DNA of 64,000 bases from Alistipes sp. Marseille-P5061 (GTDB taxonomy: Bacteria; Bacteroidota; Bacteroidia; Bacteroidales; Rikenellaceae): NCBI RefSeq assembly GCF_900290115.1, contig NZ_LT985748.1, positions 1-64,000 on the forward strand, in the 5' to 3' direction. Under the pieces are notes generated by a model, which worked only from the letters and a program-made list of their open reading frames with translations, had not been told where the DNA came from and did not search any database. Positions within the stretch are counted from its first letter, which is position 1; each line of letters opens with the position of its first letter. Positions 28,236 to 36,585 of this stretch are shown piece by piece. A program made the position numbers and the translations under genes.

Positions 28236-29126
28236 ATGGCAACGAAAAAATTCAAATGCAATGTTTGCGGCTATATCCATGAAGGTGCGGCCGCTCCCGA
28301 AAAGTGCCCCGTCTGCGGTGCTCCCGCATCGGAATTCACCCCTCTGAAGAAGAAGGGGCTGTTCAGCGACACGAACAGCAACGCCTATATCATCATGTAC
28401 TCGACGGTGATGGTCATCATCGTGGCCGTCCTGCTGGCCGTAGCAGCGCTGGCGCTCAAGCCGCGTCAGGATGCCAACGACCTGAACGAGAAGAAGCGCA
28501 ACATTCTGGCGTCGCTCTATGCGGGTGATGCCGCAAGAATGCAGGTCGACGCGGAGAAGCTCATCGACACGATTAGCTACGACGATGTCGTCAGCGCCTA
28601 TGTGGTCAATGACCGCGGCGAGCGTATCGACGGCGATGTCTTTGCGCTGCTGAACGACCTGCCGACGGCCTTTGCCGAAGGGAAGCTCCCGGTCTTCGAG
28701 GCCAAGGACGGCCGCGTGGTGCTGCCCGTCTACGGTGCCGGTCTGTGGGGCCCGATTTGGGGCTACGTGGCGCTCGAGAAGGACATGAACACGATTTCGG
28801 GTATCATCATGGCCCACAAGGGCGAGACCCCGGGTCTGGGTTCCGAAATCGCCACGTCGAAGTATCAGTCCAAGTTCCTCGGCAAGACGATTTTCGAGGG
28901 TGACCAGTTCGTCTCGGTGAAGTTGCGCAAGGGCGGCGCCCAGGACCCCGCCCACGAGGTGGATGCCGTCTCGGGCGGTACGAAGACCTCGGACGGTGTG
29001 ACGGCCATGCTCTTCGACAGCTTCTCGCACTATCTGCCGCTGCTGGAGGCCAAGAAGGCCGCAGCCGTGCAGCCGGCAGCCGCCGAGGAAGTGTCTAACG
29101 ATGAAAATGTAGCAAGCAATGAGTAA
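28236..29126 (+). CDS. nqrC: NqrC with an N-terminal rubredoxin-like domain
   Basis: Subunit C of the sodium-pumping NADH:quinone reductase, 296 residues, normally one transmembrane helix plus a periplasmic FMN domain. Here residues 1-37 form an extra domain, [20 protein letters not shown] followed by [10 protein letters not shown]. Its cysteines C8, C11, C24 and C27 match the FeS4 site of rubrerythrin-type rubredoxins. The helix spans about 50-73. The flavinylation motif is [10 protein letters not shown] (243-252), with Thr249 predicted to carry FMN. No alternative start lies between the rubredoxin part and the helix, so the fusion is a single translation product. The 3' end overlaps nqrD by 8 nt. 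The N-terminus should face the cytoplasm, next to the NqrF redox domains. Confidence 0.95.
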
Positions 29127-29775
29127 GAACGAAAGAGAGCCTTTGTTTTCGGCTAAGAACATGAAATACCTGACGGGTCCCTTCTCGGCGAACAACCCCG
29201 TCATCGTGCAGATTCTCGGTATCTGCTCGGCTCTGGCCGTCACCGTACAGCTCAAGCCGGCCATCGTCATGGCACTTTCGGTGACGGTGGTGACCGCCTT
29301 CTCGAACCTGGTGATGTCGCTGCTGCGCAACGGCGTGCCGGCGCGTATCCGCATCATCGTCCAGCTGGTGGTCATCGCCGCGCTGGTGATTCTGGTGGAC
29401 CAGGTGCTGAAGGCCTACGTCTATGAGGTCTCCAAGCAGCTGTCGGTCTACGTGGGTCTGATTATCACCAACTGTATCGTCATGGGCCGTGTCGAGGCCT
29501 TCGCGCTGGCCAACAAGCCGTGGCCTTCGTTCCTCGACGGTATCGGCAACGGCCTGGGCTACGGCATGATTCTGGTCATCGTGGCCTTCTTCCGCGAACT
29601 GCTCGGTTCGGGCAGCCTGCTGGGCTACCGCATCATCCCCGAAAGCTGGTACATGTCCGAGGGCGGCTTCTATTCGAACTGCGGTCTGATGCTCTTCCCG
29701 CCCATGGCGCTGATTATCGTCGGCTGCATCATCTGGGTACACCGTTCGCGCAACAAGGATTTACAGGAAAAATAG
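29119..29775 (+). CDS. nqrD: Na+-translocating NADH:quinone reductase subunit D
   Basis: Integral membrane subunit that with NqrE coordinates an intramembrane 2Fe-2S centre. The 218-residue product has six hydrophobic helices. The cluster cysteines are visible in half-helix motifs [11 protein letters not shown] and [15 protein letters not shown]. Conserved segments [15 protein letters not shown] and [16 protein letters not shown] follow. The ATG overlaps the end of nqrC by 8 nt (ATGAGTAA), indicating translational coupling. Confidence 0.97.
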
Positions 29776-29785
29776 AAGATAACGT

Positions 29786-30394
29786 ATGGAAACACTGAAT
29801 ATCTTTATCCGGTCGATTTTTATCGACAACATGGTCTTCGCCTTCTTCTTCGGCATGTGCTCCTACATCGCCGTGTCGAAGAGCGTCAAGACCGCACTGG
29901 GTCTCGGTGCCGCCGTTACCTTCGTGATGGTGATGACCGTTCCGCTGAACTATCTGCTCTATGAATACGTGCTCAAGGCCAACGCACTGGTCGAGGGTGT
30001 CGATTTGAACTTCCTCACCTTCATCGTCTTCATCGCAACGATTGCCGCATTCGTGCAGCTCGTCGAGATGATTGTCGAGAAGTTCTCGCCGACGCTCTAC
30101 AACCAGCTGGGTATCTTCCTGCCGCTGATTGCCGTCAACTGCGCCATCATGGGCGGTTCGCTCTTCATGCAGCAGAAGGTTGACGCCGGCGAGCTCACCT
30201 CGTTCGTGCAGACCGTAGCCTATGGACTGGGTTCGGGCCTTGGCTGGTGGCTGGCAATCGTCATGATGGCCGCCATCCGCGAGAAGACGACCTATTCGCA
30301 CATTCCCGCAGCGCTGAAGGGCCCCGGCATCGCCTTCATCATCACCGGCCTGATGGGTATCGCCTTCATGATATTCTCGGGCATCCAGTTCTAA
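29786..30394 (+). CDS. nqrE: Na+-translocating NADH:quinone reductase subunit E
   Basis: Homologue of NqrD inserted in inverted topology. The 202-residue product has six helices and supplies the other two ligands of the intramembrane 2Fe-2S centre, in NMVFAFFFGMCSYIAVSK and PLIAVNCAIMGGSLFM. Other conserved stretches are VAYGLGSGLGWWLAIVMMAA and a C-terminal GITGLMGIAFM-type helix. It starts 10 nt after nqrD. Confidence 0.97.
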   Translation: METLNIFIRSIFIDNMVFAFFFGMCSYIAVSKSVKTALGLGAAVTFVMVMTVPLNYLLYEYVLKANALVEGVDLNFLTFIVFIATIAAFVQLVEMIVEKFSPTLYNQLGIFLPLIAVNCAIMGGSLFMQQKVDAGELTSFVQTVAYGLGSGLGWWLAIVMMAAIREKTTYSHIPAALKGPGIAFIITGLMGIAFMIFSGIQF

Positions 30395-30416
30395 CCTGTA
30401 AAAAGTGATTTAGAAA

Positions 30417-31679
30417 ATGGAATTGACAATCATCATAGCAATCGTGGCCTTCCTTGTCATCACGCTCGTCCTGGTGGCAATCCTGCTCGTAGCGAAGGCG
30501 AAGCTGACCTCGTCGGGCGAAGTGACGATTGACATCAACGACGGCGAGAAGGTCATCAAGGCCGAGAGCGGCAACTCGCTGCTTTCGACGCTGGCCAACA
30601 ACAAGGTGTTCCTGCCTTCGGCCTGCGGCGGCGGCGGTTCGTGCGGCATGTGCAAGTGCCAGGTCATGGAGGGCGGCGGTGACATCCTGCCGACCGAAAC
30701 GGGCTTCATCTCGCGCAAGATGGCCAAGGACCACTGGCGTCTGGGCTGCCAGGTGAAGGTGAAGAACGACCTCAAAATCAAGGTGCCCGAATCCGTTCTG
30801 GGCGTGAAGAAGTGGGAGTGCACCGTAGTATCGAACCGCAACATCTCGACCTTCCTCAAGGAGTTCGTGGTGAAGCTGCCCGAAGGCGAGCACCTCAAGT
30901 TCCGCAGCGGCGGTTACATCCAGATTGACATCCCGAAGTACGATGCCATCAAGTTCTCGGACATGGACGTTGACGAGAGGTACCGCGCCGACTGGGACCG
31001 CATGAAGATGTGGAATTTGGTGGCCACCAACCCCGAGCCGACCTTCCGCGCCTACTCGATGGCCAACCACCCGGCCGAGGGCAACATCATCATGCTCAAC
31101 ATCCGTATTGCCACTCCTCCGTTCGACCGTGCGACCGGCACGTTCAAGAAGGTGAACCCGGGTATCTGCTCGTCGTACATCTTCTCGCGCAAGCCGGGTG
31201 ACAAGGTGACCATCTCGGGCCCCTACGGCGAGTTCTTCCTGCCGGACAACCTGCCCGACACGCAGGAGCTCATCTTCGTGGGCGGCGGTGCCGGTATGGC
31301 GCCCATGCGCAGCCACATCATGCACCTCTTCAAGACCGAGAAGACGAAGCGTCCGGTATCGTTCTGGTACGGTGCCCGTGCGCTCAAGGAGGCTCCCTAT
31401 CTGCACGAGTTCCACGAAATCGAAAAGGAGTTCCCCAACTTCTCGTTCCACCTGGCGCTCGACCGTCCCGACCCGGAGGCCGATGCAGCAGGCGTGAAGT
31501 ATACGCCGGGATTCGTCCACAACGTGCTCTACGAGAACTATCTGAAGCACCATCAGGCACCCGAGGACTGCATCTACCTCATGTGCGGACCCCCGATGAT
31601 GATTGCGTCGGTGGTGAAGATGCTCGACTCGCTCGGCGTACCGCCCGAGAACATCCTCTACGACAACTTCGGCTCGTAG
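30417..31679 (+). CDS. nqrF: Na+-translocating NADH:quinone reductase subunit F
   Basis: NADH-oxidising subunit and electron entry point, 420 residues. An N-terminal transmembrane helix (residues 2-24) anchors a 2Fe-2S ferredoxin domain with the cysteine cluster ACGGGGSCGMCKCQVM and a fourth Cys in WRLGCQ. The FAD domain has FRAYSMANHPAE and PGICSSYIFSRKPGD. The NADH domain has FVGGGAGMAPMRSH and YLMCGPPMM with the C-terminal aromatic region YDNFGS. It is the last gene of the nqr operon and is followed by a strong terminator at 31714. It is the likely reductant of any rubredoxin centre on NqrC. Confidence 0.97.
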   Translation: MELTIIIAIVAFLVITLVLVAILLVAKAKLTSSGEVTIDINDGEKVIKAESGNSLLSTLANNKVFLPSACGGGGSCGMCKCQVMEGGGDILPTETGFISRKMAKDHWRLGCQVKVKNDLKIKVPESVLGVKKWECTVVSNRNISTFLKEFVVKLPEGEHLKFRSGGYIQIDIPKYDAIKFSDMDVDERYRADWDRMKMWNLVATNPEPTFRAYSMANHPAEGNIIMLNIRIATPPFDRATGTFKKVNPGICSSYIFSRKPGDKVTISGPYGEFFLPDNLPDTQELIFVGGGAGMAPMRSHIMHLFKTEKTKRPVSFWYGARALKEAPYLHEFHEIEKEFPNFSFHLALDRPDPEADAAGVKYTPGFVHNVLYENYLKHHQAPEDCIYLMCGPPMMIASVVKMLDSLGVPPENILYDNFGS

Positions 31680-31759: not shown

Positions 31760-31942
31760 TGGTACGACCCTTTGCCGGCGGGGCGCTTGCGAACCTTTCC
31801 CGGCGGGGCGCTTGCGGTTCTTCCCCCGGCAGGCCCGCTCTCGGTTTCTTTTTCTTTTCCCCCCCCGGCCGCCCCCTCCTTTTTGGAAGAAGGAGGGTCG
31901 TTCTTCGGGAATGGAGCAATTGGGAGTCGGCCCCGCGCCGGG

Positions 31943-33310
31943 TCAGAGCAGCTTGCCGCTCAGCAGAATGGCCGAGACGGTGAAGTAGATGATGAGCCCC
32001 GTCACGTCAACCAGCGTGGCGACGAAGGGGGCCGAGGCGGTGGCCGGGTCGAGACCGATGCGTTTGAGCAGCAGCGGAATCATCGAGCCCGAAACGGTGC
32101 CCCACAGCACGATGAAGAGGAGCGATACGGCGACGCTTGCGCCAATCCAGCCCCAGTACTCGCCGTAGTCGTAGAGGCCGAACTGCTGCCAGACGATGAT
32201 GCGCACCAGTCCGATGCACCCCAGAATCGCCCCCAGCAGCACCCCCGAGAGCAGCTCCTTGCGCAGAATGTACCACCACTGCCTTATCCCCAGTTCGCCG
32301 AGCGCCAGCGCGCGGATGATGAGACTGGCGGCCTGCGACCCGGAGTTGCCTCCGCTCGAGATAATCAGCGGCACGAAGAGCGCCAGAACCACCGCCCGGG
32401 CGATTTCGTCGTCGAAATAGCCCATGGCCGAGGCGGTGAGCATCTCGCTCAGGAAGAGGATGACGAGCCATCCGGCCCGTTTGCGCACCAGCGAGAGGAG
32501 TGGCGTGCGCGTGTAGGAGAGCTCCAGTTCCTCGGCGCCGCCGAACTTCTGGAAATCCTCGGTGCCCGCCTCGCGCAGCGCCTTGAGCAGACGGTCGGCC
32601 GTGACGATGCCCAGCAGCGCCCCCGAGGCGTCGGTTACGGGGAGCGCCGTGGTCGCCTGACCCACCATGCGGGCGGAGGCCTCGCCCAGCGTGTCGCGCG
32701 CATGAAGGGGCGCGGCGGAGGGGCGGCAGAGCGACGCGACCGGCTCGGCGGGGTCTGCCAGCAGCAGCTCGTCGGGACGGAGTGCTCCGACGAGCCGGCA
32801 CCCGGGTGCGGTCACGCAGAGCAGTTCCGCACGCGAAGCGGCGGTCGTCTGGCGCAGCCGTTCGGCGGCCGAGCCGGCGCTCAGGTCGTGTGGCAGGGTG
32901 AGGTAGCGGTGCGAGAGGAGCCTCCCGACGCATTCGCTGTCGTAGCCGGCCAGCAGGAAGCGTCGTTCGGGGGCGAGCCCGGCCGTATACTCCGGCAGCA
33001 GGCGCACCGCTTCGGCGGGCATCTCGTCGAGTTCATCGGGCGTGAAGGCCTCGAGCGGGGAGTCTCCGGCGGCGGCCATCGCCGCGAGTGCCGTGAGCAG
33101 CCTGCGGCGCAGGGGCGGGGCGAAGCCTTCGAAGAGGGCCTCGGCCGCACGATGCGGGGAGAGTCGGAAAAGGATGGCTTGAGCCTCGGCGGGGGAGGCT
33201 TCGATGAGGGCGTGGAGCGTTGGCAGGTCGCAACGGCTCAACGCCTCCCTGAGTGCATGCCAGTCGCCATCGGCGAGCAGCTGCAGCAGTCGGATGTTGG
33301 TCTCTTTCAT
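31943..33310 (-). CDS. mgtE: MgtE-type magnesium transporter
   Basis: Mg2+-selective channel/transporter of the inner membrane, 455 residues. The N-terminal helical Mg2+-sensing domain (residues 1-130) is rather divergent. CBS modules follow (about 135-255, with PVTDASGALLGIVTADRLL), then the plug helix and five transmembrane helices from about 285. Pore-defining segments are present: PLIISSGGNSGSQAASLIIRAL and APFVATLVDVTGLIIYF. An unusual leader of about 150 nt with an upstream ORF and alternative pairings precedes it. The start at 33310 has an ideal AAAAGGAG ribosome binding site 8 nt upstream, which is part of those pairings. Confidence 0.93.
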   Translation of the reverse strand: MKETNIRLLQLLADGDWHALREALSRCDLPTLHALIEASPAEAQAILFRLSPHRAAEALFEGFAPPLRRRLLTALAAMAAAGDSPLEAFTPDELDEMPAEAVRLLPEYTAGLAPERRFLLAGYDSECVGRLLSHRYLTLPHDLSAGSAAERLRQTTAASRAELLCVTAPGCRLVGALRPDELLLADPAEPVASLCRPSAAPLHARDTLGEASARMVGQATTALPVTDASGALLGIVTADRLLKALREAGTEDFQKFGGAEELELSYTRTPLLSLVRKRAGWLVILFLSEMLTASAMGYFDDEIARAVVLALFVPLIISSGGNSGSQAASLIIRALALGELGIRQWWYILRKELLSGVLLGAILGCIGLVRIIVWQQFGLYDYGEYWGWIGASVAVSLLFIVLWGTVSGSMIPLLLKRIGLDPATASAPFVATLVDVTGLIIYFTVSAILLSGKLL

Positions 33311-33361
33311 GGCATGGTCTCCTTTTGTCCTGCAAGGGAGACCACGCGGGGCCCTTACAGG
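33311..33361 (-). promoter_or_regulatory. Candidate riboregulator controlling mgtE translation
   Basis: Two interleaved pairings can form in the mgtE leader RNA. Pairing A joins CCTGTAAGGG (33361-33352) with CCCTTGCAGG (33338-33329), 10 bp with one G-U. Pairing B joins GGTCTCC (33343-33337) with GGAGACC (33322-33316), and its 3' arm contains the GGAG ribosome binding site. A and B compete for C33338 and C33337, or could coexist as an H-type pseudoknot if B shrinks to 5 bp. The structures lie immediately after a 16-codon upstream ORF. Function as a switch is inferred; the complementarity is exact. Confidence 0.6.
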
Positions 33362-33365
33362 TGGT

Positions 33366-33416
33366 TCAAGAATTCGATGTCGTTTTCGTGAGTTTTCTGT
33401 ACGGGCCTTCGTCCAT
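33366..33416 (-). CDS. Candidate 16-residue leader peptide upstream of mgtE
   Basis: A minus-strand ORF of 16 codons plus TGA encodes MDEGPYRKLTKTTSNS. Its ATG is preceded by an A-rich tract (CAAAAAAACAAAAAC), typical of translation starts in Bacteroidales. It lies inside the mgtE leader, downstream of the promoter at 33467-33497. Its stop codon ends 4 nt before the first arm of pairing A, so a terminating ribosome would mask that arm. Whether it is translated is unknown. Confidence 0.45.
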   Translation of the reverse strand: MDEGPYRKLTKTTSNS

Positions 33417-33466
33417 GTTTTTGTTTTTTTGAGTTAGACACGGGGTTCCGGCGGCTGCCGGCGCTG

Positions 33467-33497
33467 CAAATGTACGCTCCCGAACCGGAAAAAACAA
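33467..33497 (-). promoter_or_regulatory. Promoter of mgtE
   Basis: Minus-strand TTG (33497-33495) and TACATTTG (33474-33467) are 20 nt apart. The predicted start near 33461 gives a leader of about 150 nt, long for this phylum, with a GC hairpin (CCGGC/GCCGG) right at the 5' end. Confidence 0.75.
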
Positions 33498-36097: not shown

Positions 36098-36515
36098 CGC
36101 GCTCTGGTTCGGTCGGTGATGGCCCGGTTCCGGCTGATTCCGGTGCGGGAAGTGCCCGATTACGGGCAGGGTAGATGGTCCCCGGTTGGGGCGGTCTCGG
36201 CCGATTCCGGTGCGGCGGGTTGGATTCGGACCGGGGCGAACCGGTACGGGAGGTCGGTTCTGGGTGGGGCTGTTGGTTCCCGGGCAGGGTAGGGCGGCGG
36301 GTCGGTTCAGTTGCGTCCGGTTGGTTCAGTTGCGTTCGGTCGCGTCCGGTTGGTTCAGTTGCGTTCGGTCGGTTCAGTTACGTTCGGTCGCGTTCGGTTG
36401 GGCTCAGTCGGTTTGGTTGGGGTCGGGCGCGTTCAGCCGGTTTTTGGGCATGGATGGGTGGCGCGGAGATTTCGAAACGATACTTCGATGTTATTTTTCG
36501 AAATAAAAAATGGAG
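36098..36515. repeat. Spacer with GGTTCAGTT/CGTTCGGT repeats
   Basis: No gene is supported. GGTTCAGTT occurs at 36304, 36323, 36352 and 36371, giving a 19/29/19-nt rhythm, and CGTTCGGT or CGTCCGGT fills the gaps. Earlier in the spacer CCGGTTGGGGCGG/GGTGCGG variants recur. From about 36465 the sequence becomes AT-rich, leading into a terminator and the hppA promoter. Confidence 0.6.
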
Positions 36516-36553: not shown

Positions 36554-36585
36554 TATTCGACCAATCCATAAATTTACATACCGTT

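Follow-up and report, generated by a model that had tools for sequence, protein, structure and literature searches.

The 64,000-nucleotide stretch of DNA analyzed here (the window), from a genome of 2.67 Mb in 6 contigs, carries on its minus strand a gene for a magnesium transporter, mgtE, preceded by a very short open reading frame (uORF) and by RNA segments able to pair in more than one way. The question raised by this locus was whether uORF and pairings form a switch for mgtE, and which signal such a switch would read. The reading that we favor, with a probability of about 0.72, is a translational attenuator that is operated by ribosomes and controls a Mg2+ importer, in which the early loss of ribosomes from the uORF in low Mg2+ would turn expression on.

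Judging from its domains, the product of the controlled gene is a true MgtE (Table 1). The sequence TACATTTG upstream of the uORF fits TAnnTTTG, which we take to be the consensus of the Bacteroidota -7 promoter box. Of 47 leaders, 40 carried a TAnnTTTG box no more than 75 nt upstream of the uORF, where shuffled sequence gave 1.6, and the uORF therefore very likely lies within the transcript.

Table 1. Elements of the mgtE leader and the gene it precedes (window coordinates).
Feature	Position	Strand	Description
mgtE (controlled gene)	31943..33310	-	455 aa Mg2+ transporter/channel; Pfam PF01769 (MgtE) 7.8e-37 + CBS; NCBIfam TIGR00400 (mgtE equivalog) above cut-off
Segment 4, GGAGACCAUGC	33312..33322	-	contains the SD-like sequence and start region; masked by pairing with segment 3
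Segment 3, GCGUGGUCUCCCUUGCAGG	33329..33347	-	33338-33329: antisequestor arm, pairing with 2; 33347-33337: sequestor arm, pairing with 4
Segment 2, CCUGUAAGGGCC	33350..33361	-	pairs with 1 or 3; within the predicted footprint of a ribosome terminating on the uORF
Leader uORF, MDEGPYRKLTKTTSNS	33366..33416	-	16 codons, stop TGA; N-terminal signature conserved in 50 leaders
Segment 1 (uORF codons 4-8), GGCCCGUACAG	33397..33407	-	pairs with segment 2; MFE fold
Putative Bacteroidota -7 promoter box, TACATTTG	33467..33474	-	read from sequence; transcript start expected a few bases downstream

All coordinates given in the original prediction, for the uORF (33416-33366) as for both pairs of arms, were correct on the minus strand. 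Pairing 2:3 joined CCTGTAAGGG (33361-33352) to CCCTTGCAGG (33338-33329). The second pairing, proposed between GGTCTCC (33343-33337) and GGAGACC (33322-33316), was real, but at 7 bp it had been drawn too short: the 3:4 helix comprised 11 bp (-19.2 kcal/mol) between GCGUGGUCUCC (33347-33337) and the whole of segment 4, and in the fold of the window copy it hid an SD-like GGAG plus an upstream AUG. Folding added a pairing absent from the earlier account, 1:2, between segment 1 and CUGUAAGGGCC (33360-33350; -14.4 kcal/mol), which together with the 11-bp 3:4 helix gave the leader the 1:2 / 2:3 / 3:4 layout of an attenuator. The overlap between 2:3 and 3:4 was only 2 nt in the window copy. The leader folded with z = -5.84, none of 200 dinucleotide shuffles being as good; taken with the covariation of 2:3 and 3:4 in relatives presented below, this argues against pairing by chance. 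At 33315-33307, ATGCCATGA contained an out-of-frame ATG opening a two-codon ORF (Met-Pro-stop), the TGA of which overlapped the mgtE ATG; ATGCCATG, located at the 3' end of segment 4, was shared with four genus relatives (L006-L009) and not elsewhere.

This mgtE was rare among close relatives (5 of 151 genus genomes and 13 of 200 family genomes), so that a similarity search with the leader DNA within the genus was nearly uninformative. MgtE homologues were common across the phylum (219 of 248 genomes) and, at E <= 1e-30, occurred in 134 of 344 order genomes. The uORF was found upstream of mgtE in all five genus copies (L005-L009) and in 12 of the 13 family copies (for example MDEGPY, MDEGPD, MDDGPY, MDEVPI and MEEYRQ), the exception, L015, matching only from residue 97. 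One further relative, L010 from Bacteroidales UBA3543, was obtained from a contig scan. Together with the promoter box and the proteins, it suggests a source in the Bacteroidota, order Bacteroidales, probably close to Alistipes.

Conservation of the short ORF, one of the checks suggested for the window copy, was borne out across 50 leaders by a common N-terminus, M-[D/E/K]-[D/E]-[G/D/V]-P-[Y/D]. Position 2 was D/E in 45 of these leaders, position 3 was acidic in 49 and position 5 was Pro in 48, where each of the four CCN codons occurred (third base free). Peptide length ranged from 10 to 21 and no conservation was seen past about codon 8. This acidic and proline-bearing N-terminus, suggestive of a sensor, had not been part of the original prediction; on sequence grounds the uORF is probably translated. 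The position of the stop codon was constrained as well: in 47 leaders, the distance from the uORF stop to the first base of segment 2 ranged from -12 to +10 nt, clustering at -4 and +7, and in about 18 of the 47 the UAA of CUGUAAGG was the uORF stop itself. Because the stop lay on or just before segment 2, a terminating ribosome would cover that segment, in agreement with the proposal that a ribosome finishing the uORF covers the first arm.

Alignment A1, obtained with no fitting by hand from 28 leaders of the genus, family and order, was scanned along all antidiagonals, and 2:3 (10 bp) and 3:4 (9 bp) were the two longest conserved helices. Both used columns 94-100, and owing to these shared segment-3 columns they compete and are mutually exclusive in relatives. 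Covariation, expected of both pairings if they were functional, was found in alignment A2 (47 non-redundant leaders): pairing held in 87.4% of cells for 2:3 and in 85.9% for 3:4, with double changes in 46 cells (15.3 shuffled) and 24 cells (9.0 shuffled), respectively. Neither count was reached in 500 shuffles, a test that kinship among sequences inflates. Both signals were lost when partners were slid (A2). Whole helices were also replaced with both pairings kept, as in the mgtA leader L136, where CAAUAAAGAGAUA / UAUCUCUUUGUUG / CAACAAAGAGGUAC differ in letters, and likewise in L131 and L135. For 1:2, cognate duplexes in the redundant set averaged -12.66 kcal/mol and duplexes with exchanged partners -10.51 (permutation p < 5e-5); in the non-redundant set, a test on a 5-nt kernel gave p = 0.0045. 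Of 42 nascent leaders, only 6, the window copy among them, favored this pairing over 2:3, and it was weak in many members; its statistical support was weaker than that of 2:3 and 3:4.

The original prediction had offered either alternative hairpins or an H-type pseudoknot. The first form was retained, with the same 7-8 segment-3 columns serving both helices in relatives, and the second was not. The same observations bear on the idea that the RNA itself is a Mg2+ riboswitch, in which Mg2+ would stabilize 3:4 or a pseudoknot and the uORF would be secondary. The strong folding of the leader would fit such a device, and the 2-nt overlap makes a pseudoknot sterically possible in the window copy, but the leaders have no conserved junction or aptamer core and no Rfam match, helix sequences are swapped wholesale (L136, L131, L135), and both the coding signature of the uORF and the position of its stop are conserved. 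Since both helices draw on the same bases and a conserved aptamer core is lacking, a pseudoknot or ligand riboswitch was rejected as the main model and is regarded as very improbable.

A covariance model built from mgtE leaders only (R1) was run on 374 order genomes and matched 39 of them, with 38 of the 39 hits directly before a Mg2+ importer gene. By Pfam and NCBIfam, the targets were MgtE (19), CorA (13), a PRC/MgtE_N/CBS protein (5) and an MgtA-type P-ATPase (1). A hit in genome G711 (L145, E = 0.093) lay inside an unrelated gene and was discarded as a false positive. Two of the three PRC operons that were extended had a Nramp-like gene next (L146, with Pfam Nramp at E = 1.3e-96, and L147), and the third (L148) had no Nramp gene in the stretch read. 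In Clostridia, NrmT Mg2+ transporters with M-boxes have this arrangement of MgtE-N/CBS and Nramp, although the same study indicates that manganese is the probable substrate of one NrmT lacking an M-box (PMC4072509). Running R1 across the class added one leader outside the order, on a PRC/MgtE_N plus Nramp-like operon (L150), while a second mgtA example (L159, uORF MTDDPYPSYGK...) was found within the family. Re-searching of the 39 leader-bearing genomes gave exactly one leader copy in each. A degenerate second leader-like sequence (L162, G195:C4:168688-168805, minus strand), with 3:4-type arms and no uORF, lay at a distance of 2.9 kb from L159, the second mgtA leader, and preceded an outer-membrane-protein-like gene.

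The window leader thus appears, from sequence comparison, to be a member of a family spread through Bacteroidales and serving all four importer classes; its occurrence on corA, mgtA and Nramp operons had not been anticipated. Because one module, a tiny conserved gene with competing hairpins, precedes all four kinds of importer, an undescribed Mg2+-responsive switch is very probable. A broader distribution, with the leader on all Bacteroidota mgtE genes, was considered and rejected, as the best-matching copies from outside the order (L020-L048) had no such uORF. The MDEGP-type uORF was not seen before mgtE in L020-L048 or in some deep Bacteroidales lineages (L083-L088), and some other control must therefore operate on these genes.

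The M-box (RF00380, ykoK leader) was detected in none of the 39 leader-bearing genomes, with positive controls in B. subtilis and L. lactis, and Rfam 15 gave no match to the leader and none in the window. Like the M-box, the leader is found upstream of MgtE, CorA, MgtA and NrmT genes (PMC4072509), but it has a conserved ORF instead of a multi-helix aptamer.

Folding of the window copy under ribosome masks depended on how much of the RNA had been made. With the RNA ending after segment 3, 1:2 formed when the RNA was free (0.91) and 2:3 formed when segment 1 was masked (1.00). At full-length equilibrium 3:4 prevailed even with segment 1 masked (P(2:3) 0.04), so that the switch must be kinetic and act during transcription. 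Masking of the early codons raised 2:3 and made the last 20 nt more accessible in 35 of 47 leaders (p = 2.5e-5), and a mask at the uORF stop abolished 2:3. For a few divergent leaders, the window copy included, the 3:4 columns of the mask-folding table were out of register, and for these the analysis relied on P(2:3) and accessibility alone.

In the scheme that we infer for the favored attenuator, the uORF would be translated, Mg2+ would be the signal, ribosome drop-off the sensing step and translation of the importer the step under control. With sufficient Mg2+, the ribosome would reach the uORF stop and cover segment 2, and 3:4 would pair, hiding the mgtE start (off). In low Mg2+, ribosomes would be destabilized on the N-terminal Asp-Glu-Gly-Pro and drop off within the first codons, occupying segment 1 and never segment 2; 2:3 would then form co-transcriptionally and leave segment 4 open (on). 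If the uORF were not translated, 1:2 would form, then 3:4, giving a default off state.

The claim that this architecture matches none known did not survive comparison with Salmonella mgtQ, a leader ORF in the mgtC-mgtB intergenic region, which switches between 1:2 + 3:4 and 2:3 and needs Asp2 and Glu5 (PMC8092293). Both systems combine a short, early-acidic ORF with mutually exclusive 3:4 and 2:3 folds, the 1:2 pairing over the ORF being strong in the window copy and above non-cognate controls across the set but weak in many members, and an acidic residue within the first five codons, characteristic of mgtQ, was found here too. In mgtQ, as predicted here, pairing 3:4 conceals the start of a Mg2+ importer gene, and 2:3 is favored by a ribosome occupying region 1. 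The present leaders differ in their phylum and in lying 5' of a gene or operon, where mgtQ is flanked by two genes, no sequence relation being seen; in having the stop codon at segment 2; in a uORF of 10-21 codons instead of 8; and in preceding MgtE, CorA, NrmT-like operons and MgtA, whereas mgtQ serves mgtB alone, a P-type ATPase. The leader would work like mgtQ layout for layout, which does not establish membership in an mgtQ family given the other genes, the other phylum and the lack of a sequence relation.

In E. coli MgtL, which like mgtQ is an experimental precedent, ribosomes are lost on an EPDP motif when Mg2+ is low (PMC11282234). The leaders described here share with the mgtL of E. 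coli and Salmonella mgtA an acidic and proline-bearing leader peptide before a Mg2+ importer (PMC11282234). Drop-off is suggested as the sensing step because the N-terminus resembles this EPDP motif and mgtQ; by analogy, the same step as in MgtL and mgtQ may operate here. The choice between competing hairpins by the position of a ribosome on a leader ORF is also common to trp and erm-type attenuators, from which the present leaders differ in signal and target, being apparently dedicated to Mg2+ importers.

Any early arrest would mask segment 1 as well, and the same switch could be set by ribosomes that stall without dropping off, in response to charged tRNA-Pro/Tyr, to slow elongation or to a nascent peptide that arrests translation, tuning the transporters to general translation status. 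Pro5 is almost invariant (48 of 50 leaders), Tyr6 is common, and Salmonella mgtP, of the mgtCBR leader, reads charged tRNA-Pro (as stated in PMC8092293). Such stalling is nevertheless considered unlikely: the uORF usually has a single Pro codon and no runs, the acidic position 3 is as constant as Pro, and targets that are all Mg2+ importers point to Mg2+ and not to an amino acid.

The step controlled by the favored switch could also be transcript elongation or Rho termination, as with E. coli mgtL, in place of translation initiation. In mgtL, the same kind of leader peptide is paired with Rho (PMC11282234), and drop-off in low Mg2+ changes RNA folding to act on a Rho-dependent terminator, whereas the pairing here is at the transporter start region. 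In almost every copy the partner of segment 3 is that start region, in L017-L019 segment 4 reaches as far as the AUG, and no T-run follows 3:4, as an intrinsic terminator would require; control of elongation or termination therefore seems rather improbable.

How 3:4 would repress initiation is less straightforward. Among the 47 transporter starts, 39 had a 5-base SD-like sequence, compared with 4 of the 37 genes in the window, a rough control with starts taken as the first ATG, and none of the uORF starts in the 47 leaders had even a 4-base one. The GGAG named as the mgtE Shine-Dalgarno in the original prediction would indeed be hidden by 3:4, but its function as a working SD is doubtful, as the ribosomes of Bacteroidia reportedly initiate without SD pairing (PMC9976891); since they mostly ignore it, hiding the SD may not be the route by which 3:4 represses. 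L129, with no SD, kept a 9-bp 3:4 helix, and segment 4 of L017-L019 ended directly at the AUG, from which selection would act at least on pairing with segment 3. The SD-like sequence is perhaps also read, possibly by ribosomes without bS21. A bolder picture, in which Bacteroidales hold a portable Mg2+ sensor based on ribosome abortion, independent of that of enterics and placed over four importer classes, with a hidden SD-like sequence read in low Mg2+ by a specialized subset of ribosomes (for instance those lacking bS21), is speculative and seems improbable as a whole.

In the literature searched, nothing relevant was found on a Bacteroides mgtE/corA leader or uORF peptide, nor any description of a Mg2+-responsive leader in Bacteroidota; by that literature and Rfam 15, the leader family, its lineage and its list of four target classes appear undescribed. 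If one module serves MgtE, CorA, MgtA and NrmT-type operons, Mg2+ sensing through fragile early translation would be a general solution that has arisen more than once. The leader also offers a prediction of which Nramp-like and CorA-like genes in gut and environmental bacteria import Mg2+, and a system for studying control at the start site in bacteria that normally do without SD pairing.

Elsewhere in the window, a row of plus-strand ORFs at 28236-31679, convergent with mgtE, was assigned by eye from translations to NqrC-F-like subunits of a Na+-translocating NADH:quinone reductase. The intergenic space between mgtE and the NqrF-like gene contained a 25-nt GC-rich unit repeated twice in tandem (31765-31816). 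A tandem array of about 48-nt and 29-nt units (GGTTCAGTTGCGTTCGGTC...) was located at 36300-36401, upstream of a membrane pyrophosphatase-like gene that starts, by eye, near 36583.
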